Shown here piece after piece: positions 5,581-23,386 of a DNA stretch of 37,470 nt. Origin of the DNA: a virus; the IMG/VR virus record IMGVR_UViG_3300047551_001631, positions 1 through 37,470 of that record; one strand, given 5' to 3'. Within the stretch, counting starts at the first letter, position 1, and each line of letters starts with the position of its first letter. Under the pieces are notes generated by a model. That model saw only the letters and a list, made by a program, of their open reading frames with translations. It was not told the origin of the DNA and did not search any database. The translations under genes were made by a program, and so were the position numbers.

Positions 5581-6250
5581 TGCGGTAGGTGTGCGCACCG
5601 TCTGATTTGCAATCTGATTTTCGGTGTGCCATAGACTGTTCGGCATCCTCAACGGTCACGGCTCACGGCTTTGACTGTCAGGTGAATCGCCCAAATAGTG
5701 GCGGTGGCAAGTCAGCGGTAGCGATTACGCTCCGACCGACTGTCGGCGTGAAGCAATCAGGCGATGATTCGCCGTGAAGCGCTAGGCATCCCGAGTGGCT
5801 CAGGTCACGGTACGGTCAATCCGTGGGATGCAATACGAGGTAGGGCGAGTACTCTGAACCGAGCGCCTCTCGGATAATGTGCCGATGTGGCACACACGGT
5901 CACAATTCTTGGGAGAATTGTGTCTAGTGGGGAGTATGGTCTGGCTTGCCCTTCGGGGTGGACTGAGCGGTGACACTCACTGGGCACAACCTTTGGTTGT
6001 GGTCGTAGGGTACAGTGGTGACAAGTGGTCACCTCTATGTGCCCCAAGCGTAATTGCGAGAACCCGCGTGGAGGCGATTACGCAAGGTTAGTATGCGTCC
6101 GTAATCGTTTACGATTACGGTAGTGCGTGAACCTAGTGTTAGGTTCGGCGGTGCGATTCCGTCACTATCCGCTATGACAACATACTGTTGTCAGAACTTC
6201 GCCGATTGGCAATCAGCGGAGACAACACACCAGAACTGGAGGTTCTGAAT
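5581..6250 (+). ncRNA. Large structured RNA or leader of unknown class
   Basis: About 670 bases without a credible gene but dense in stable stem-loops. These include 5786-5831 (GCATCCC/GGGATGC enclosing CACGG/CCGTG), 5859-5873, 5878-5894 (TGTGCC/GGCACA), 5901-5922 (9 bp, loop TGGG), 5949-5958 (UUCG tetraloop), 5985-6001 (7 bp), 6017-6033, 6048-6083 (GCGTAAT/ATTACGC), 6099-6120 (9 bp, loop TTTA), 6129-6146 (7 bp, loop GTGT) and 6175-6193 (8 bp, loop TAC). Most stems are perfect, which is unlikely by chance. It lies directly before the ATPase gene, so it may be a free RNA or a long regulatory leader. Size and phage context recall giant structured phage RNAs such as GOLLD, but I cannot show membership. 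Confidence 0.55.
6231..6247 (+). promoter_or_regulatory. SD-in-loop hairpin before ATPase gene
   Basis: CAGAAC (6231-6236) pairs with GTTCTG (6242-6247) and the loop is TGGAG, so the GGAGG SD (6238-6242) lies mostly in the loop. The ATG follows at 6252. A second CAGAAC at 6192-6197 can compete for the same 3' arm. Confidence 0.7.
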
Positions 6251-7606: not shown

Positions 7607-7627
7607 ATAAACACTGGAGGTGTTTAT
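7607..7627 (+). promoter_or_regulatory. SD-in-loop hairpin before VWA-like gene
   Basis: ATAAACAC (7607-7614) pairs with GTGTTTAT (7620-7627) around loop TGGAG. The SD GGAGG is 7616-7620, and the first two bases of the ATG at 7626 lie in the stem. Confidence 0.75.
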
Positions 7628-8489
7628 GCTAGTCACGAAAGATGCGAAGTCAGTCTACGGTGTGAACCTGTGGATTGAGGAATTCGGCAGCCTTGCCGAA
7701 ACGCTGGATTATGCTGGCGCCAATACGAATCCACGCTCATCTGACAAGGAGCGTGGCACTGATTGGGCTGGTGGCACCGAGAACCTGAAAGCCGCCGTCA
7801 AATTGGGGCACGAAGGGTACGAGGAAATTCGCCCCGAAGTGGAGCGGATGTTCTCCGAACTGGAATCGCAACTCGCCGAGCGTCTGGAAGTAGCCTTCCA
7901 GACTCGCTTTGATTACAGCGGTTCCGTCGTGGATGTGGGTCGCTACTTGGGTGGCGAGCCTGAGTGTATGATTGACTTCGTCCCCGAGCCTTCGGCTCGT
8001 ATGGGTCGGGTCGTCAAGGTCATAATCAACGGCTCCTGCTCAGCGTATGTTGATGCCAAGCGCATCATTCAGCGTGGCGTGGTTGTGTGTGCGCTGGTTG
8101 ACGCAATCCACAAACTCGGGATGGGTGTTGAGGTTTATGCCGAATTCCCCATCAACGACACGGGTATCAACAATCGGAACGGCAAGGTTCATACTTCACT
8201 TGTGAAGTTGCATTCGTCGGAACAGTTGCTGGACATCAATAACTTGATGTTCGCTCTGTGCCATCCGTCAATGTTGCGCCGAATCCAGTTCTCGTTGATG
8301 GAGCAATCCCAATGGGATTCTGCCAAGCGCATAATCAAATCGGGCTACGGTTATCCGTCGGCTCTTGAGTGCGCCGAGCGTGTCGGTGCTGATGTCAAGT
8401 GCGAGATGCTTCAGTCCGCTCGTGAGGATTATGAGTCCAAGCCTGTTGATTGGGTGATGTCCACTCTTAGTGGATTGGGGGTCATCTAA
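7626..8489 (+). CDS. VWA-like partner of MoxR ATPase
   Basis: A 287-residue protein. I start it at ATG 7626, five bases after GGAGG, rather than at the in-frame GTG at 7620. An N-terminal mixed region is followed by a VWA-like core at about 126-165: VVKVIINGSCSAYVDAKRII, then helix VVVCALVDAIHKLG and strand GVEVYAEF. This is the order of a VWA Rossmann fold, but the MIDAS DxSxS position reads NGSCS (135-139), so the first aspartate is replaced. MoxR-VWA pairs are known in bacteria and phages (CobS/CobT-like). The pairing is strong from context; exact family membership is not certain. The TAA stop lies just before a hammerhead ribozyme. Confidence 0.65.
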   Translation: MLVTKDAKSVYGVNLWIEEFGSLAETLDYAGANTNPRSSDKERGTDWAGGTENLKAAVKLGHEGYEEIRPEVERMFSELESQLAERLEVAFQTRFDYSGSVVDVGRYLGGEPECMIDFVPEPSARMGRVVKVIINGSCSAYVDAKRIIQRGVVVCALVDAIHKLGMGVEVYAEFPINDTGINNRNGKVHTSLVKLHSSEQLLDINNLMFALCHPSMLRRIQFSLMEQSQWDSAKRIIKSGYGYPSALECAERVGADVKCEMLQSAREDYESKPVDWVMSTLSGLGVI

Positions 8490-8494
8490 TCCTA

Positions 8495-8560
8495 GGACGA
8501 AACACGGAGCCTTGTGTGTTGGCTCCGTGTCCGCCAGTGTGTGCTGGCGCTGATGAGTCC
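8495..8560 (+). ncRNA. Type II hammerhead ribozyme 1
   Basis: All core elements are present in circularly permuted (type II) order. Helix II is GGAC (8495-8498) with GTCC (8557-8560). GAAA is 8499-8502. Helix III is 10 bp (8502-8511 with 8521-8530, loop of 9). The cleavage triplet GTC is 8529-8531, with the cut after 8531. Helix I is CGCCAG/CTGGCG (8532-8537 and 8544-8549, loop TGTGTG). The second core strand is CTGATGA (8550-8556). It lies between the VWA-like gene and the next small gene. Self-cleavage would separate the two messages. Confidence 0.9.
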
Positions 8561-8571
8561 AGTTTGATTCG

Positions 8572-8586
8572 CAACCTTGGAGGTTG
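8572..8586 (+). promoter_or_regulatory. SD-in-loop hairpin downstream of ribozyme 1
   Basis: CAACCT (8572-8577) pairs with AGGTTG (8581-8586), loop TGG. The SD GGAGG is 8579-8583 and the ATG is at 8590. Confidence 0.65.
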
Positions 8587-8589
8587 GGT

Positions 8590-8766
8590 ATGAAATGGTA
8601 CACTGTGAAGTGGGTGGGCAAGAATTTTATTCTGTCCACCGTAGTTGAGGCTGAATCGGAGGAGCGGGCTGGCGCTTATGCGTTCGCTGACCTGACCACT
8701 GGTTTTGTCCACACTGAGGAGGCGTTGCGTAATGCGACGATGCTGATTGAGGAGGTCACGCAATGA
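8590..8766 (+). CDS. Hypothetical early protein, 58 aa
   Basis: Starts MKWYTVKWVGKNFILSTVVE, then EAESEERAGAYAFADLTTG and a helical acidic end (LRNATMLIEEVTQ). The strand-strand-helix pattern suggests a small alpha/beta fold. The ATG at 8590 is six bases after GGAGG. Its stop overlaps the next ATG (ATGA). No function is recognised. Confidence 0.65.
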   Translation: MKWYTVKWVGKNFILSTVVEAESEERAGAYAFADLTTGFVHTEEALRNATMLIEEVTQ

Positions 8767-9023
8767 AGTATGTTTTTGCACGGTTGATTATTGCCTTGCT
8801 GGCTTTAGCCAGCGCCGTCGGCGCGTCATACTTGGTTGTGACCAATACGACCGATGAGGTGAATTATGCGGTGGCTATGTTGGCACTGGTTGTGATGGTG
8901 CTGGCGTGGATTCCCGTTGTAATAGCGTCAATGGGCGTAGGCGAGGAATGGGCTAGTTATTGCGAGACGGTTAGCCGTCGTCGCCGTATGGCGAAGCGTC
9001 GCCACCCAAGCCGAGTTCACTAA
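8763..9023 (+). CDS. Two-span membrane protein (hypothetical)
   Basis: An 86-residue protein with hydrophobic segments at about residues 5-26 (FARLIIALLALASAVGASYL) and 35-58 (YAVAMLALVVMVLAWIPVVI). A cytoplasmic-type basic tail follows (SRRRRMAKRRHPSRVH). It overlaps the preceding gene by four bases. The TAA stop sits in an inverted repeat just upstream of the second hammerhead. Function unknown. Confidence 0.7.
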   Translation: MKYVFARLIIALLALASAVGASYLVVTNTTDEVNYAVAMLALVVMVLAWIPVVIASMGVGEEWASYCETVSRRRRMAKRRHPSRVH

Positions 9024-9053
9024 TTGCGTCACACCCCCTGCTACAGTGAACTC
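9013..9053 (+). other. Inverted repeat over stop codon
   Basis: GAGTTCACT (9013-9021) is exactly complementary to AGTGAACTC (9045-9053), with a 23-base loop. It covers the end of the membrane protein gene and abuts ribozyme 2 at 9055. It may shield the 3' end of the upstream cleavage product or help the ribozyme fold. Confidence 0.5.
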
Positions 9054-9054
9054 A

Positions 9055-9120
9055 GGACGAAACGCTCAGGGTCTCCTTTCCCCTGAGCGTCCACCAGTAG
9101 ATGCTGGTGCTGACGAGTCC
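9055..9120 (+). ncRNA. Type II hammerhead ribozyme 2
   Basis: Same architecture and same length as ribozyme 1. Helix II is GGAC (9055-9058) with GTCC (9117-9120). GAAA is 9059-9062. Helix III is ACGCTCAGGG/CCCTGAGCGT (9062-9071 and 9081-9090, loop of 9). GTC is 9089-9091, with the cut after 9091. Helix I is CACCAG/CTGGTG (9092-9097 and 9104-9109). The core strand is CTGACGA (9110-9116). Helix III differs almost wholly from ribozyme 1 yet pairs over 10 bp, and helix I has one compensated pair change. Confidence 0.9.
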
Positions 9121-9131
9121 AGAAGCACTCA

Positions 9132-9150
9132 ATAACACTGGAGGTGTTAT
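9132..9150 (+). promoter_or_regulatory. SD-in-loop hairpin downstream of ribozyme 2
   Basis: ATAACAC (9132-9138) pairs with GTGTTAT (9144-9150) around loop TGGAG. The SD GGAGG is 9140-9144. The ATG at 9149 begins inside the 3' arm. Confidence 0.75.
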
Positions 9151-9769
9151 GTTTGGAATGACCACTGGCGTAGTTGTCTACGCCGACCCACACAAGGAAC
9201 CCGAGACGGTTCTACTCGGTGGCGGTGACGCTGACCGAGTGACAGAAATTCAGAGTCTCGTCGGAGGACACTTTGACGCTGTGCGTCTATCGTGCCACGA
9301 CGATTCTGGCAAATACAAAGACTTCGTGTTGCTGGGCTATGTCCACGACGAGGGTCTGCTACTGAATCTGCCACTGAATCCGATGGCGTCAATGCTGTTC
9401 AGCCGTCACATTGCAGGCGATGTGGTGCTGGTCAACGGCACCAATCCCGAGACACACCAATACGATGGGGAGACTTACAGTCTGCCGATGGACTTTGCCG
9501 AGTACCTGATTCGTGGCGTGTATCCGCAAGTTCAGGAATCGCTGGTATTCAGCCAGATGCTGGCAACTGCGGTTCAGTTTGCGGTTGTTCAGGGCGCTAT
9601 CACCAAGGAGGAATTTGACAAGGTTCAGTCGTTTATGACTGAGCGCAGTTCCGATACTGATGGTGCGCCTGCGGCTCACATCAGTGAGTTGCCCGAGGAA
9701 ATCAAGGAGATTCTCACGAAGTGCGTTGACAACGCCGTGAAATTTGCGGAAGAATTGGGTGACCAATGA
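9149..9769 (+). CDS. DUF3846 domain protein
   Basis: A 206-residue protein. I start it at ATG 9149 because of the SD at 9140-9144; an upstream in-frame start would lie inside the ribozyme. Residues about 20-115 follow the DUF3846 pattern: EIQSLVGGHFDAVRL, GYVHDEGLLLNLPLNPMASM and a GDVVLVNG strand. A helical C-terminal half (EYLIRGVYPQVQESL, ITKEEFDKVQSF) ends acidic. DUF3846 proteins are common in phages and plasmids of varied bacteria, with no settled function. It overlaps the next gene by four bases. Confidence 0.75.
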   Translation: MFGMTTGVVVYADPHKEPETVLLGGGDADRVTEIQSLVGGHFDAVRLSCHDDSGKYKDFVLLGYVHDEGLLLNLPLNPMASMLFSRHIAGDVVLVNGTNPETHQYDGETYSLPMDFAEYLIRGVYPQVQESLVFSQMLATAVQFAVVQGAITKEEFDKVQSFMTERSSDTDGAPAAHISELPEEIKEILTKCVDNAVKFAEELGDQ

Positions 9770-9939: not shown

Positions 9940-10126
9940 TGGTGCGGTCGGTGGCGGACGAAAGTCCGCCACCAAATCGCTCCCCAAGAATACGAAATAC
10001 ACCTGCCCCAAGTGTTCCACTTGGGTGCTGGTTCACATTGCATTAAGATTCCGACCAGTGTGTACAAGACACGCTGGCGGTACAACACAGATGCTGGAGG
10101 CATCCAATGACACCAATACACCCTGA
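9923..10126 (+). CDS. Zinc-ribbon-like protein (hypothetical)
   Basis: A 67-residue protein starting MKLCPDGAVGGGRKSATK. A CPKC knuckle (TKYTCPKCSTW) is followed by RFRPVCTRHAGG; that cysteine and histidine could complete a zinc site, although a second clear CxxC is missing. Similar short C-terminal zinc ribbons occur in phage SprT-like and hypothetical proteins. An exact 10-bp hairpin with a GAAA loop (9950-9973) lies in its coding sequence. Its last 20 bases overlap the next gene. Confidence 0.6.
   Translation: MKLCPDGAVGGGRKSATKSLPKNTKYTCPKCSTWVLVHIALRFRPVCTRHAGGTTQMLEASNDTNTP
10090..10104 (+). promoter_or_regulatory. SD-in-loop hairpin before 79-aa gene
   Basis: GATGC (10090-10094) pairs with GCATC (10100-10104) around loop TGGAG. 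The SD GGAGG is 10096-10100 and the ATG is at 10107. This copy lies inside the end of the zinc-ribbon gene, so the element is kept even where it overlaps coding sequence. Confidence 0.6.
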
Positions 10127-12257: not shown

Positions 12258-12290
12258 CAACAACAACAACAACAAACACCTTGGAGGTGT
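12258..12290 (+). promoter_or_regulatory. CAA-repeat leader and SD-in-loop hairpin
   Basis: Six CAA-type repeats (about 12258-12275) form an unstructured linker. ACACCT (12276-12281) then pairs with AGGTGT (12285-12290), loop TGG. The SD GGAGG is 12283-12287 and the ATG is at 12294. CAA runs are known to keep leaders unfolded; that purpose here is inferred. Confidence 0.65.
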
Positions 12291-17248: not shown

Positions 17249-17711
17249 CAACACGGGTGTTGTTGCCCCAATCTTTTTTGGTTGTCTCAATATGCAACCA
17301 ACGCGCCCACGACGCACCCATCTCATTTTTTTCGGTCTGCGCTTTCCAACCACGGCGACCACCCTCACGAACCGAACGCCAAATACGGCACCCGTAGTAG
17401 TCGTGAATAGCCTGAATACCGAGTTCCTCCGAGTTCTCAATCAACCACGGCAACACCTCATCCACAACCCGCTGTCTATGCCCAACAGTATCCCCATACC
17501 GCCAATCCAATGCCGCACCAAACGAATGCGAACTCGGCGCAGTCCCGTGCCGAATCGGACGCTTAACAAATATGCCCACATTCGTCCCACCCCACCGCTT
17601 CACCAACGCATCATTGATGGCAACCAAATTCGGTGACGCTTTGCGGAACCGAACATAATCAGCCGCCACAGGCTTCTGCCAATCGTGAAAACGAGTCTTG
17701 TTCTCAGCCAT
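17232..17711 (-). CDS. M15-family peptidase (endolysin-type)
   Basis: A 159-residue protein. SSHSFGAALDW (60-70) carries the SxHxxGxAxD zinc motif (H62, D69), and WARWLHIE (135-142) supplies the final H140 and E142. This is the VanY / L-alanyl-D-glutamate or D-Ala-D-Ala peptidase fold used in phage endolysins. It cleaves peptidoglycan cross-bridges for lysis or, given its place after the virion genes, possibly for entry. ATG 17711 is seven bases after AGGAG and overlaps the stop of the 1891-aa gene. Confidence 0.85.
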   Translation of the reverse strand: MAENKTRFHDWQKPVAADYVRFRKASPNLVAINDALVKRWGGTNVGIFVKRPIRHGTAPSSHSFGAALDWRYGDTVGHRQRVVDEVLPWLIENSEELGIQAIHDYYGCRIWRSVREGGRRGWKAQTEKNEMGASWARWLHIETTKKDWGNNTRVDERLR

Positions 17712-20700
17712 CATTCATCTCCTGACATTTTAATCGGATTCTCCTCCACCTCTGCGGCACGGCGTTCCTTGGATGCCTGCTCACGCTCACGCTTCTTACG
17801 CGCCGCAATCTCATCCTTAACAGCCTTGTACTCCTTGGAATCCTTGCCGTACTTCTTCTCAGCGACCTGAAGTTTTGCGTTGTCGCTTGCTTTCTGCCTA
17901 GCGACTCTTGCCGCCTCCGTCTCTGATTCCTGTTTGGCGGTAGCGCGTTCCTCAGCGCGACGCTCAATGTTCTTTCGTTTCGCAATACGGCTCGGCATAC
18001 CCTCTTGTTTGTTGAACTCCTCGGCACCCTGAATTAATCCGAGACGCTTCAACAAATCCGTGTAATCGTTTATGTTAAACTTGCGACCCACCGCCTCAGA
18101 ACCTTGCATACGCTCGGTAACAAAATCCAAAGGCAAACCAAAGAAGGTTGAAATCGCCGCCAACTGGCGGTCCTTGTACGACTCTTTGCCACCCAACTCT
18201 CCGCCCGTAATTCGCTGCAATTGGGCAATCAACGGGAACAAGTTGCCCGCCGCATACGACGGGAATTCCGTAATCATACGCTCCGACTGGTCAGCAGAAA
18301 CACGAACTTCAGGCGCCCACCTGTTCTCCATTGGAGTCACACCAACCAACTCCGCAACAATCCTGTCAAAGCCTTCTGCTTTGCGCGGCTCATCCCTGAA
18401 AGGGATGCCCAAAGCAAGATTTCGTTCAGCCATAAACTCAATCGGCAACTTGTAAATCGGATACGCAGACCCAACAAGTTTGCTCGGAGTTGTAAACTGT
18501 TGTATTGACTTAATCAACCGTTGATGCGGCAAGTCGGGGCGAATCAAAATATCTGGGCGACCAAACCGCGCCAAACTCAACGGCTCATATTCCCGCTGCC
18601 AGTTCGGCATCAAAATCGTGTCATCCGTCGGCAACGACTCCTGCACATTCTCCCAGAACGAATACACCTGCGGACGCATCCACTGGTTAGCCAACTGATT
18701 CGGCAGGTTACGGGTGGTCCAAATCCAGAACGGGATAAACTTCAACGCAAACTCGTCAATATCCGACAAGTCCTCATAATTGAAATGGTAACGCGTCACC
18801 AACTGTGACGCGCCAACATAATCGTCCCCATTGCGAATTGATTGAAGCGCCAACGGGAACCGCACCGCATCCTCAACACGCGTATTGGATGCCCGCAATG
18901 CTTTCGTGTACGGGTTGTCAATCAATGTAGCCAAAATCTTTTCGCGACGCGTCCCACGCGTCACAGGCTCAGCCAACTCCGTAAACAAACCACGCCGACC
19001 GCTTGCCTCCACAGCCTTCATAGCCTGCTCAAACTGTGTGCGCTCCAACCCCGTCAAACCCATCTCATCTAACCAGCGCCCAGCACCATACTTGTTGTAA
19101 TACCACATCGCCTTCCAACCCTGCTCCATCGCATCAGCAGAGACACCAGCGACCGCATTCATAAACAATGCGCTGTACAAGTTGCGAACCACATATCCGA
19201 CAGTGCCAATCGCATAAGTCTTAAAGAACCTGTTGAGATAACCCAACCCTTTGAGTACCGCCCCGCGGTTTTGCTTCGCCAAAATCTTCTGAATGTTCGG
19301 CTTCCACACATCCAAAACCTCTTTGGGAATCTGAACACCCAACCCAGCAATCGCCTCCCACCCCTCAAACACCCTGTCTTCTGCTTTCGCCAATAAGCCA
19401 CCCAACTTGCCCGACATAATCGCGTCGTATTCACTCTTGGCAAAAGCCAAACCCTCCTCGGCGGTAGCCAAGTTCCATTCATCAAACGCAGACAAACGCA
19501 TCAACCGCTCGTACGCCGTCCGTAGCGACGGGTCTTGAATCAGATTCCCCGAGTTCACCGCCCGCTGAACACCAGCAATCCAGTTCCGCGACGCCTCAAT
19601 CCCCAAACCAGTCGGCGGCATTGACGCAATAGCGTCAATTGCCGTCGCAATCTCATCACGCACCATCATCCCAGTGCCATAATCCCACGCCAGCAACGCA
19701 GACGCCTCATCAAACAATACGCGCAACCGCTCCTGATTCTGCGCCAACTTTGCCTCAGTACCCCTGAGAGTCAACCCGCCTTCCTTTAAGGCGGCACGCT
19801 CACGCACCAAAGTCCGTTCCATATTCGCCCGCAACCGAGCCTCAGAAGCAGTCAACGCATTCAGATTCTTATCAATCTCACCAAGCGTCATCTGACGCGG
19901 CTTACCACCCAACACAATTTCACGCGGCAAATTACGCGCCTCACCAGCCTTTTCTTTCGCCAGCGCCGCCGCATTCTTCCGCTTTGTCGTCGCCGACTTC
20001 AACCCGCCCTTACGGCTCTGCAAACGCGACATCTCCTGCTTCAACGCAGTCACAGTATCATCAATCTCCGCCTTGCGAGAAGCAACCTGATTCAGCCGCC
20101 CACGGGCGGCACCAAGCGCAGACTCCGCATCCGTACGCATCAACGCATCAATAAGCGGACTTGAAGCATCCTGAACCGAACCAGTCACCGACTTCGTCGG
20201 CTCCAACACCACACGCGGAGCCAAAATCACAACGACATCATCAACCTCGGCGGCATCATCAAACAAATTCGCAGGCAACACAATCCCACGACCCGTATTC
20301 GTTTCGTCCGCCACCTTCGCAACATAACCCAAAGCACCATCCACAATTTGCCGCGCAACTTGGTCAGCGTTTGGCGTACCCAAACGCACCAACAAACCCG
20401 TAATCAGGTCAACATTCTCCTCATAAATCTGCTTCACCAAATTCGGGTCACCAGTCGCCAAAATATCCCGACTGGTATTCCCCTCCATCAACTTCAACAA
20501 ATCAGCCAACTCAGGGAACGCCTGCTCAAACTCGGGGTCAATAGGCATTGTCGCCCGAATCATATCCAAACCCGTCTCCAACGGCTCCGTATCAACACCC
20601 AACATCCGCAACTGGTCAACCAGCCCATCACCAAAATCGTTGCGCCCAAACACCTGAGAAATACCACGCGGTGTCCTGAAATCCAAAATCTCATCGTTGC

Positions 20701-23386
20701 CAAACACGCGCACACCCAACACATCAGCCTTATCGGGGAACCCGCTAGCGGAAGTGCGCAAAGTCTTAAACGGAATCTGCATCTCATCCGTCTCCGCCAT
20801 CTCGCGACCCGTAATGTACAAGAAACCGTTATCGGGCGCATAATCCTGCGCCGCCCGATACTCAGCCATCACACGGAACCCGTTATCCACATCCTTGAGA
20901 CGAGCCATCTCATCAGCCAACTGCTGATACTCTGGCGAACCCACAGCCAAAGAATCCAACTGTGTACGAATCTCCGCCAAACGCACATTAATTTCACGCA
21001 CCTCACGCGCCGCAGGCACTCCACGCGCCGCCACAATCCTGTCAGCCAAAACATCAATATCGTCAGGAACCTTCACGGCATTCGGATACATCGTCCTGTA
21101 AGTGGTCTGAAGACCCAAACGAATCTCATCAAGTTCAGCGGTCCCATTCGCCAAAGCATTACGCAAATTGGTAATGTCCGTCAACAAAGCGGCGTGGACA
21201 ACATCAAACTCGCCCCGTTTATGCGCCTCCAGATTTGCTGCCTGCTGCCGCAAATTCTTCAACGCATCCTCAAGTTTGGTCAACCGTTCAATAGTCGCAT
21301 CCGTAGCCCTCTGGTTCATCTGGGTTTGTCGCAGGTTGCCGTTTATGATGTCCTCGGCATCCTTGATGCCGCGCTTGACTACCTCACGGATACCAACCAT
21401 ACGACGCCCCATACGGGCACGAACAGAGTCACGCGCTTTAATCGCGTCATCCAAAACCTTCTTTGACTCAGCCGCCAACCTCGGGTCAGGAATCGTCTTG
21501 TAAAGCAGCGGCGCAGCCGCAGCATCCCCATATTCAATCAACCGACGCACATACGCTTCGCGACCACGCATCTTCGCCATACTGTACGCATACGACTGCG
21601 CAATGCTGTCAATGTTCGTCTCAAAGAAATTGATGTCAGCACCGCTGACACGCCTAAAAATTTCGTTCAATTCTTTGATGGTTCCCTCACGAACCTGCTC
21701 ACCCATAAAGGTTTCATATTTGATTGTTCCGTCGGGAAGAACCTGTGGCGCACGCAACTTGCGGTACCGCAACGGCGCAGACACATCCGTAATGTCCGCG
21801 GCATCCAAATCGGCGTCGCGGAACCATCCGCGACCCCGAGCCAATCCCTCGTTCTTGGCAAACCAATCTGTCGCCTCACGAGACATCTTGTGAAAAACAT
21901 AATTGTCAATCCACGAAAAATCTGGCACATCAGAACCAAAGTCAACACCAAACTTCTTGTAAACACTTTCAGTGTCCGCATAAACACCACGCTGCCAATC
22001 AACATAATTCCTGACCAGACGCTGCTGAGTTTCATCCAACCGCGAAAACGCCACACCACCCGAAAACGAATACGGGTTTGCCCGTTCCGCCAAATCCGCA
22101 ATCTGGTCCTCCAGACCAGCCTCACGCGCCTCACGCAAAGTATCCTGAATCTGCGAATAAAAACGATTAAACTGATACGGGGTTTGCCCGCGGCTAAACT
22201 GCCGCGCCGACCAGTTCGCAATATTCTTTAACGCATCCTCCTCGGTCAGACGGTACTTGCCAGCCGTCCTGCGCCCAACATCCTGCATAAACGCACGGCT
22301 CCGCGGAGACAACGAAGCACCCAAAGTCTCCCTGCCAACCTTTGTTGCAATATCCATCACCTTTTCCCAAGACGCAGACATCTGACGCCCAACAGGTGCC
22401 GCAATCTGGTCCGTACCCCGAACAACCTGCCCCAAAATACGGACACCAGTCTCAATACCTTCACCCTTAAGAATTTCGGCAAATCCCTCAATTGGTGCGT
22501 GCTGACCATAACGAACAATGTCGTTGTAACGCCCCAACAGTTGCGGATACTTAGTTGTCATTTCCTTGGTTGCAAACCGTTGGGCAAGTGCCAACTTGCC
22601 CGCACGACCAACATATTTCACATTACCAACACCAGTCACATAAGTCATCGGGTCAACAGCAATAGAAACACCCAACTCTGTCGCAAAACCAAGAAAAGGA
22701 TTAATCTTCGCAACAGCCTTATTAATGGCTGATTCACGGAAATTGTAAGACGGGTCCATCGTCTTCTTAACCACATCTTTAATAGAACCCGTAATCGGTT
22801 CCTTCTCAATTGCCGACACTGCTGCAAAAATATCTTTCTCGCGTTGCGTCAACTCGCCCTGCAAACGACGCGTCAAATCAGACTCGCCGCGAGTCACCTC
22901 AATTGCCTTACCAGCCGCCTGCGCGCCAAGCCGCGCAACAGGCGGAACAAACGGACGATACGGCGACCTGCCACGCGCAACCTGTGTCTGCGCTATTTCC
23001 TCAATAACTGCCGAGCCAGCACGAGGCACCAAACCAAGCGTGTAATCATAAATCTTTTCCTTTATCGGGTCTGGCGCAAACGGGGCAATAACACCACCAA
23101 CAGCCTGCTTCGCACCCTTTTTAACACGACCCCACCAACCAGTATCCTGCGTCGGCGACTTGCCGACGGGATACCCCTCATTCAACAACTTGTAAACTTG
23201 GTCAATCGCCCGCTCTTTTTCATCAGCAGACATCGTCCCCGACGCCTTGATGCGAGCAACCGCTTTCTCGGCGGCAGCGACAGCATTCTTGTATTCTTCT
23301 TGTTTGCGTGCCGCATCATCTTTCGGCGGCTCAGGAGCCTGCGGGCGGGGAGCGCCCGCTCTAAATGGGCTGCCGTAAACAGCCAT
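17711..23386 (-). CDS. Giant internal virion / ejection-type protein
   Basis: A 1891-residue protein, the largest in the window. N-terminus: proline/alanine-rich and basic (GAPRPQAPEPPKDDAARKQE). Residues about 80-300 carry small hydrophobic stretches (LGFATELGVSIAVDPMTYVT). Residues about 640-860 and 1090-1230 are rich in long charged helices, and the C-terminus (about 1800-1891) is a K/E/R coiled coil. I see no clear lysozyme or transglycosylase catalytic motif. Very large proteins after the tail-tube genes of podoviruses are usually internal ejection proteins that form a DNA channel across the cell envelope. The gene order (nozzle, coiled-coil proteins, this, peptidase) supports that by inference. 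Confidence 0.7.
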   Translation of the reverse strand: MAVYGSPFRAGAPRPQAPEPPKDDAARKQEEYKNAVAAAEKAVARIKASGTMSADEKERAIDQVYKLLNEGYPVGKSPTQDTGWWGRVKKGAKQAVGGVIAPFAPDPIKEKIYDYTLGLVPRAGSAVIEEIAQTQVARGRSPYRPFVPPVARLGAQAAGKAIEVTRGESDLTRRLQGELTQREKDIFAAVSAIEKEPITGSIKDVVKKTMDPSYNFRESAINKAVAKINPFLGFATELGVSIAVDPMTYVTGVGNVKYVGRAGKLALAQRFATKEMTTKYPQLLGRYNDIVRYGQHAPIEGFAEILKGEGIETGVRILGQVVRGTDQIAAPVGRQMSASWEKVMDIATKVGRETLGASLSPRSRAFMQDVGRRTAGKYRLTEEDALKNIANWSARQFSRGQTPYQFNRFYSQIQDTLREAREAGLEDQIADLAERANPYSFSGGVAFSRLDETQQRLVRNYVDWQRGVYADTESVYKKFGVDFGSDVPDFSWIDNYVFHKMSREATDWFAKNEGLARGRGWFRDADLDAADITDVSAPLRYRKLRAPQVLPDGTIKYETFMGEQVREGTIKELNEIFRRVSGADINFFETNIDSIAQSYAYSMAKMRGREAYVRRLIEYGDAAAAPLLYKTIPDPRLAAESKKVLDDAIKARDSVRARMGRRMVGIREVVKRGIKDAEDIINGNLRQTQMNQRATDATIERLTKLEDALKNLRQQAANLEAHKRGEFDVVHAALLTDITNLRNALANGTAELDEIRLGLQTTYRTMYPNAVKVPDDIDVLADRIVAARGVPAAREVREINVRLAEIRTQLDSLAVGSPEYQQLADEMARLKDVDNGFRVMAEYRAAQDYAPDNGFLYITGREMAETDEMQIPFKTLRTSASGFPDKADVLGVRVFGNDEILDFRTPRGISQVFGRNDFGDGLVDQLRMLGVDTEPLETGLDMIRATMPIDPEFEQAFPELADLLKLMEGNTSRDILATGDPNLVKQIYEENVDLITGLLVRLGTPNADQVARQIVDGALGYVAKVADETNTGRGIVLPANLFDDAAEVDDVVVILAPRVVLEPTKSVTGSVQDASSPLIDALMRTDAESALGAARGRLNQVASRKAEIDDTVTALKQEMSRLQSRKGGLKSATTKRKNAAALAKEKAGEARNLPREIVLGGKPRQMTLGEIDKNLNALTASEARLRANMERTLVRERAALKEGGLTLRGTEAKLAQNQERLRVLFDEASALLAWDYGTGMMVRDEIATAIDAIASMPPTGLGIEASRNWIAGVQRAVNSGNLIQDPSLRTAYERLMRLSAFDEWNLATAEEGLAFAKSEYDAIMSGKLGGLLAKAEDRVFEGWEAIAGLGVQIPKEVLDVWKPNIQKILAKQNRGAVLKGLGYLNRFFKTYAIGTVGYVVRNLYSALFMNAVAGVSADAMEQGWKAMWYYNKYGAGRWLDEMGLTGLERTQFEQAMKAVEASGRRGLFTELAEPVTRGTRREKILATLIDNPYTKALRASNTRVEDAVRFPLALQSIRNGDDYVGASQLVTRYHFNYEDLSDIDEFALKFIPFWIWTTRNLPNQLANQWMRPQVYSFWENVQESLPTDDTILMPNWQREYEPLSLARFGRPDILIRPDLPHQRLIKSIQQFTTPSKLVGSAYPIYKLPIEFMAERNLALGIPFRDEPRKAEGFDRIVAELVGVTPMENRWAPEVRVSADQSERMITEFPSYAAGNLFPLIAQLQRITGGELGGKESYKDRQLAAISTFFGLPLDFVTERMQGSEAVGRKFNINDYTDLLKRLGLIQGAEEFNKQEGMPSRIAKRKNIERRAEERATAKQESETEAARVARQKASDNAKLQVAEKKYGKDSKEYKAVKDEIAARKKREREQASKERRAAEVEENPIKMSGDE

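Follow-up and report, generated by a model that had tools for sequence, protein, structure and literature searches.

The DNA analysed here, a virus record of 37,470 bases (hereafter the window, always taken at its full length), contains at positions 8495–8560 what is almost certainly a true hammerhead ribozyme, of type II architecture and situated between two co-directional genes. The best explanation for this element, argued from sequence, is that it would cut a polycistronic phage mRNA between its cistrons, a reading that we hold at a probability of about three in four. A second hammerhead lies 560 nucleotides from the first, and related copies are very common in phages, where they are usually missed by standard annotation.

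Architecture of the two ribozymes

The elements of the first copy, each located from the sequence unless another basis is given, are as follows:

8495–8560 (+): type II hammerhead ribozyme, copy 1 (sequence, fold, sub-threshold Rfam match, pattern statistics and covariation)
8495–8498 with 8557–8560 (+): helix II, GGAC paired with GTCC
8499–8502 (+): GAAA
8502–8511 with 8521–8530 (+): helix III, 10 bp
8531 (+): C17, the end of the GTC triplet
8532–8537 with 8544–8549 (+): helix I, 6 bp, or 7 bp with the closing U-G pair
8550–8556 (+): core strand CTGATGA
Between 8531 and 8532 (+): predicted self-cleavage site (homology to the hammerhead mechanism)

Every core element of the original prediction is present at the same coordinates and in the right order, and its reading as a type II hammerhead between two genes, which are co-directional, is supported. 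The minimum-free-energy fold of copy 1 is exactly that of a hammerhead (-34.7 kcal/mol, z -4.5). The second copy and the region directly upstream of it comprise:

9015–9051 (+): inverted repeat GTTCACT...AGTGAAC, overlapping an extended -10-like element, TGCTACAGT, and ending 3 nt before copy 2
9055–9120 (+): type II hammerhead ribozyme, copy 2 (sub-threshold Rfam match, sequence, fold and orthologs)
After 9091 (+): predicted cleavage site of copy 2

Copy 2, with the core elements CTGACGA, GAAA and GTC, repeats the architecture of copy 1 with wholly different stem sequences. It is as good a hammerhead as the first, its minimum-free-energy fold again being an exact hammerhead (-32.0 kcal/mol, z -3.8), and its helix III shows compensatory changes among five orthologs. 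A search of the whole window found exactly these two. In both copies CUGANGA, GAAA and a NUH triplet are disposed around a three-way junction, the arrangement by which hammerheads are recognised, and fold and element order show stems I and III closed by loops and stem II open, which is the type II architecture.

The covariance-model check that accompanied the original prediction gave an outcome that, read literally, is borderline. The Rfam Hammerhead_II model (RF02276) matches copy 1 at 8495–8568 (24.3 bits, E 0.88) and copy 2 at 9055–9128 (26.7 bits, E 0.2), and both scores fall below the gathering threshold of 37 bits. The assignment of the copies to type II rests on their architecture and not on the model score. 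As the same shortfall is seen in nearly all relatives, we attribute it to the model rather than to the motif. The low scores are what a chance resemblance or a decayed, inactive ribozyme would predict, a reading to which we give hardly any credence, since both cores are intact despite completely different stems, orthologs carry compensatory changes, and the statistics of the class given below exclude it.

The region 5' of copy 2 bears on another account, according to which the ribozyme would define the 5' end of the downstream gene's message, replacing a 5'-triphosphate by a 5'-hydroxyl and a hairpin without any cutting between genes, copy 2 being the first element of a transcript of its own. 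An extended -10-like element, TGCTAYAGT, is conserved a few nucleotides 5' of copy 2 in the window and in most relatives, inside an inverted repeat whose arms covary in the relatives (GTCCACTAT/ATAGTGGAC and GTACACTA/TAGTGTAC). The repeat at 9015–9051 may be a promoter with its operator or, alternatively, an RNA hairpin, and either a hairpin or an operator explains it equally well as the 5'-end account. Moreover, no such -10-like element precedes copy 1, at which terminator and promoter prediction called neither kind of signal, and the element before copy 2 was not called by the promoter scan and lacks a clear -35. We consider this account quite unlikely.

A widespread class of hammerheads between phage genes

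The genes and signals that flank the ribozymes in the window are:

7626–8489 (+): upstream gene, DUF7192 (PF23822; phrog_1909), whose stop ends 5 nt before copy 1
8572–8586 (+): hairpin CAACC-TTGGA-GGTTG, which contains the Shine-Dalgarno sequence and is separated by 3 nt from ATG 8590
8590–8766 (+): downstream small gene of 58 aa, an ORF starting at ATG 8590, of no family
9149–9769 (+): gene downstream of copy 2, DUF3846 (PF12957), 206 aa

Copy 1 had originally been placed between a VWA-like gene and a small gene. The small gene stands, and the upstream gene is a DUF7192 member that has no match to a VWA model and for which a VWA assignment is plausible by gene pairing; an AAA_5/MoxR-like ATPase gene lies upstream of it. 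Its start is probably ATG 7626 rather than the longest-ORF GTG 7620, judging from the fit to a Shine-Dalgarno hairpin. The DUF7192 gene also contains, 5' of copy 1, a palindrome that was set aside on finding that relatives do not conserve it. Copy 2 is flanked by an 86-aa gene on its 5' side and the DUF3846 gene on its 3' side. Because genes for a DnaB-like helicase, a PD-(D/E)XK nuclease and a primase-like protein lie downstream, the genes around the ribozymes belong to the replication side and are probably early ones; the terminase is encoded on the opposite strand. Elsewhere on the minus strand, at 17711–23386, a 1891-aa ORF without a PHROGs match possibly encodes a large virion protein such as the tape measure.

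A comparison of 3 kb of DNA gave no match to annotated phages. Four contigs with DUF7192 proteins 70–78% identical to that of the window carry ribozymes after the DUF7192 gene and before a DUF3846-like gene, and in two of the four additional ribozymes lie around other small genes. An uncultured podovirus, MW202803, has the same ATPase-DUF7192 cassette as the window, with one hammerhead and a TCAG-type tail. More distant relatives of DUF7192 occur in mycobacteriophages; a pattern scan of the 30–73 kb stretch of LeBron revealed no type II hammerhead.

As a separate observation, perfect hairpins of 5–8 bp with the Shine-Dalgarno sequence in the loop (e.g. CAGAAC-TGGAG-GTTCTG) stand just before many gene starts in the window, at 6231–6247, 7607–7627, 8572–8586, 9132–9150, 10090–10104 and 12276–12290. 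Eight are present, six of them at gene starts, versus 1.1 in shuffled sequences, and hairpins with other stem sequences occupy the corresponding positions in the relatives. They were not seen in other hammerhead phages and are not tied to the ribozymes, and look like a phage-wide translational control.

The class to which the two ribozymes belong was delineated with a search pattern consisting only of the core and a 4-bp helix II, with helices I and III left unspecified. This pattern matches more than 119 viral-contig stretches, versus 3 for the reversed pattern, and in the loci that were fetched both unspecified helices are present in 191 of 192 matches. A wider scan of the loci brought 244 unique ribozymes to light, reversed sequence giving none, and later scans enlarged the set to 434. 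Taken together, the excess over the reversed pattern, the presence of both stems and the empty reversed scan exclude chance. Among 171 unique ribozymes, pairs 1–6 of helix III and pairs 1–6 of helix I are 91–100% standard, and nearly all pair types occur at most positions of both helices, which is the signature of compensatory change. Helix II is confined to 4 bp: an extension into the flanks was ruled out by the absence of any further pair in 157 of the 171.

Bacterial genomes yielded only 7 stretches matching the pattern, and in the collections searched it is therefore mainly a phage feature. Individual phage contig stretches carry up to 9 copies; three of them (L247, L072 and L062) have 8 to 9 hammerheads per gene row. 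Cultured phages carry such copies as well: seven unannotated type II hammerheads are found in 16 kb of Streptomyces phage Lizz (L194, 2697–9578), each followed within a few nucleotides by a ribosome-binding site, and four, likewise unannotated and a few nucleotides before ribosome-binding sites, in 16 kb of Streptomyces phage Wentworth. At its cut-off Rfam misses nearly all of these elements, with 2 matches in 14 ribozyme-rich viral loci, none among the 11 type II hammerheads of the two cultured Streptomyces phages, and none in one podovirus.

Throughout the class, counted from the base with which the ribozyme begins, the upstream stop ends between -5 and +3 in 115 of 216 cases, and in 46 of these 115 the last base of the stop is itself the first base of the ribozyme (TAG|GAC). 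A Shine-Dalgarno sequence and start follow within 150 nt of 92% of ribozymes (median 27 nt), versus 55% of random positions. Since the stop abuts the 5' side and a ribosome-binding site and start soon follow, the ribozyme occupies almost the entire gap between two genes across phages. By a crude ORF count, the local coding strand is not clearly biased (92 versus 69).

Base conservation in the class also suggests a possible tertiary contact, for which the window offers a candidate base:

8494 (+): A directly 5' of helix II, which may touch the loop I U (8538) in a tertiary contact linking loop I and stem II

This A, which formed no part of the search pattern, is present at its position in 167 of the 171, and loop I opens with U in nearly all of them. 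Type I and III hammerheads have a reverse Hoogsteen contact, which joins a U in stem I to the A with which loop II ends on its 3' side. The A at -1 and the loop I U appear to resemble this loop I–loop II contact. Pseudoknot pairing of loop I with the tail, by comparison, is depleted if anything, at least 4 Watson-Crick pairs being available in 9 of 244 ribozymes versus 16.6 in shuffled sequences, and assignment of the class to the pseudoknotted type II subclass of Perreault et al. was accordingly rejected.

Pairing of the 3' tail with the catalytic strand

In roughly one fifth of the ribozymes the tail just 3' of the motif is able to pair with the catalytic strand. A first test of core–tail pairing with 25-nt tails gave no clear excess, an outcome which we think reflects an inflated background from G-U pairing of the Shine-Dalgarno sequence, and it was replaced by register-specific tests. 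In the first register, tails of the form N'TCAG, which pair with CTGAN, were seen 22 times versus 3.8 in shuffled sequences, in about a tenth of the nonredundant ribozymes. The base N' covaries with core position 7 (T-A 10 and C-G 8, versus T-G 1 and C-A 1; Fisher p 0.0009). Fresh helix II classes gave 13 instances versus 2.2 expected, with position 7 pairable in 13 of 13. In the second register (type B), GAGNC, which lies partly in helix II, pairs with the tail in 21 cases versus 4.8 in shuffled sequences. Over all data the count is 26, versus 6.3 in shuffled sequences and 11.6 with cores of another helix II swapped in; fresh data lend weaker support (6 versus 1.7, one shuffle reaching 9). 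Permutation of cores with all tails taken together is marginal, 27–40 of 300 permutations being as good for tails of 10–16 nt, and more for longer ones. Core–tail complementarity is a feature of the class, and in the window it takes the following forms:

8554–8571 (+): product-side alternative hairpin of copy 1, TGAGTC-CAGTTT-GATTCG (type B; enriched over shuffles)
9115–9118 with 9127–9130 (+): weaker product-side pairing of copy 2, GAGT with ACTC, 4 bp only

The predicted minimum-free-energy fold of the 3' product of copy 1 contains the inner 5 bp of the TGAGTC/GATTCG hairpin. In active hammerheads the CUGANGA strand lies outside any helix. Tail pairing excludes the active fold and must therefore act either before or after the cut.

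A role before the cut would make the 3' tail of an active hammerhead an off-switch that sequesters the catalytic strand, with cutting dependent on co-transcriptional timing, ribosomes or some other factor. The tail pairing does compete directly with helix II, the mean probability of which before cleavage is 0.15 with TCAG tails and 0.50 otherwise in a model that considers secondary structure only, and the upstream stop overlaps or abuts the ribozyme, so that a ribosome terminating there would sit on the 5' strand of the ribozyme. However, the ribozyme is complete before its tail is transcribed, strong tail pairing is absent from most ribozymes of the class, and neither a conserved ligand pocket nor a further partner was seen. 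The energy model ignores the tertiary contact, and for copies 1 and 2 it favours helix II before cleavage (0.87 and 0.79). We regard such a switch as unlikely, and prefer a role after the cut, because helix II is favoured beforehand in both copies of the window, its 4 bp alone hold the products together, and a one-way cut suits mRNA processing.

Under the preferred reading of intercistronic cutting, copy 1 would be transcribed within a polycistronic phage mRNA, in which helices I, II and III would form and the contact of the loop I U with the A 5' of helix II would steady the core. The RNA would, we infer, cut itself after C8531, leaving an upstream DUF7192 message closed off by the helix III hairpin and bearing a 2',3'-cyclic phosphate, and a downstream message that begins with a 5'-hydroxyl and the helix I hairpin. 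With nothing but the 4-bp helix II and the tertiary contact to keep them together, the products would part easily, and the freed 3' core strand could pair with the tail (TGAGTC/GATTCG), which would block re-ligation. A fully structured leader would be left 5' of the Shine-Dalgarno hairpin and ATG 8590, and the operon would be split into separately stabilised and separately translated messages.

Natural hammerheads with tertiary contacts are capable of ligation, and the presence of two copies 560 nt apart could suggest that cleavage and ligation generate circular or spliced RNAs between successive ribozymes. Such RNAs were sought and not detected by Perreault et al. (PMC3088659), and a product-side trap would oppose ligation, making this outcome very improbable. 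More generally, we tentatively propose, at somewhat less than even confidence, that these elements form a large phage type II subclass, invisible to Rfam, with a built-in product trap (CUGANG or NGAGNC with the tail) that would render cleavage irreversible and leave the downstream mRNA capped by structure. The core-sequestering tail hairpin is possibly a new structural element, no prior description having been found in the literature accessible to us, which includes few subscription journals. This covarying hairpin offers a specific prediction, open to mutation, of how the cut might become one-way.

Relationship to known hammerheads

Clustered hammerheads flanking genes in prophages were reported in 2011, and processing of long phage transcripts was proposed for them (Perreault et al., PMC3088659); three tandem phage-type hammerheads of A. 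tumefaciens cleave both in vitro and in E. coli (PMC3088659). An intercistronic role has hence already been put forward, and the ribozyme of the window adds to the known phage hammerheads. The original suggestion that use as operon punctuation is uncommon is contradicted by this work, as well as by the contig stretches with as many as 9 copies and the 7 in 16 kb of Lizz. A 2017 review noted the phage link and left the role of prokaryotic and phage hammerheads open (PMC6155905), a question on which the almost exact fit of phage hammerheads into the space from a stop codon to the following ribosome-binding site bears directly, as does the finding that many phage contigs carry hammerheads missed by the current covariance model.

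With the type II hammerheads of Perreault et al. (RF02276) the present class shares the core, the circular permutation that leaves stem II open, the intergenic clusters in phages and the proposed processing of transcripts. In type II hammerheads already published, loop I and the tail often form a pseudoknot (PMC3088659), whereas here helix II has 4 bp, there is no signal of such a pseudoknot and Rfam scores are below the cut-off; in place of the pseudoknot there are the conserved A before helix II and the U that opens loop I, and in about a fifth of cases a tail complementary to the core. The A at -1 and the loop I U occupy places matching those of the type I and III hammerheads of Schistosoma and sTRSV (PMC6155905), although in the present class stem II has no closing loop and the contact is a putative one read from sequence. 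In Lizz and Wentworth, which are unrelated phages, the same type II motif stands directly before the ribosome-binding sites of small genes, and any trap-like pairing there places the Shine-Dalgarno sequence in the loop; the many copies in these cultured Streptomyces phages make the idea of mRNA processing directly testable.
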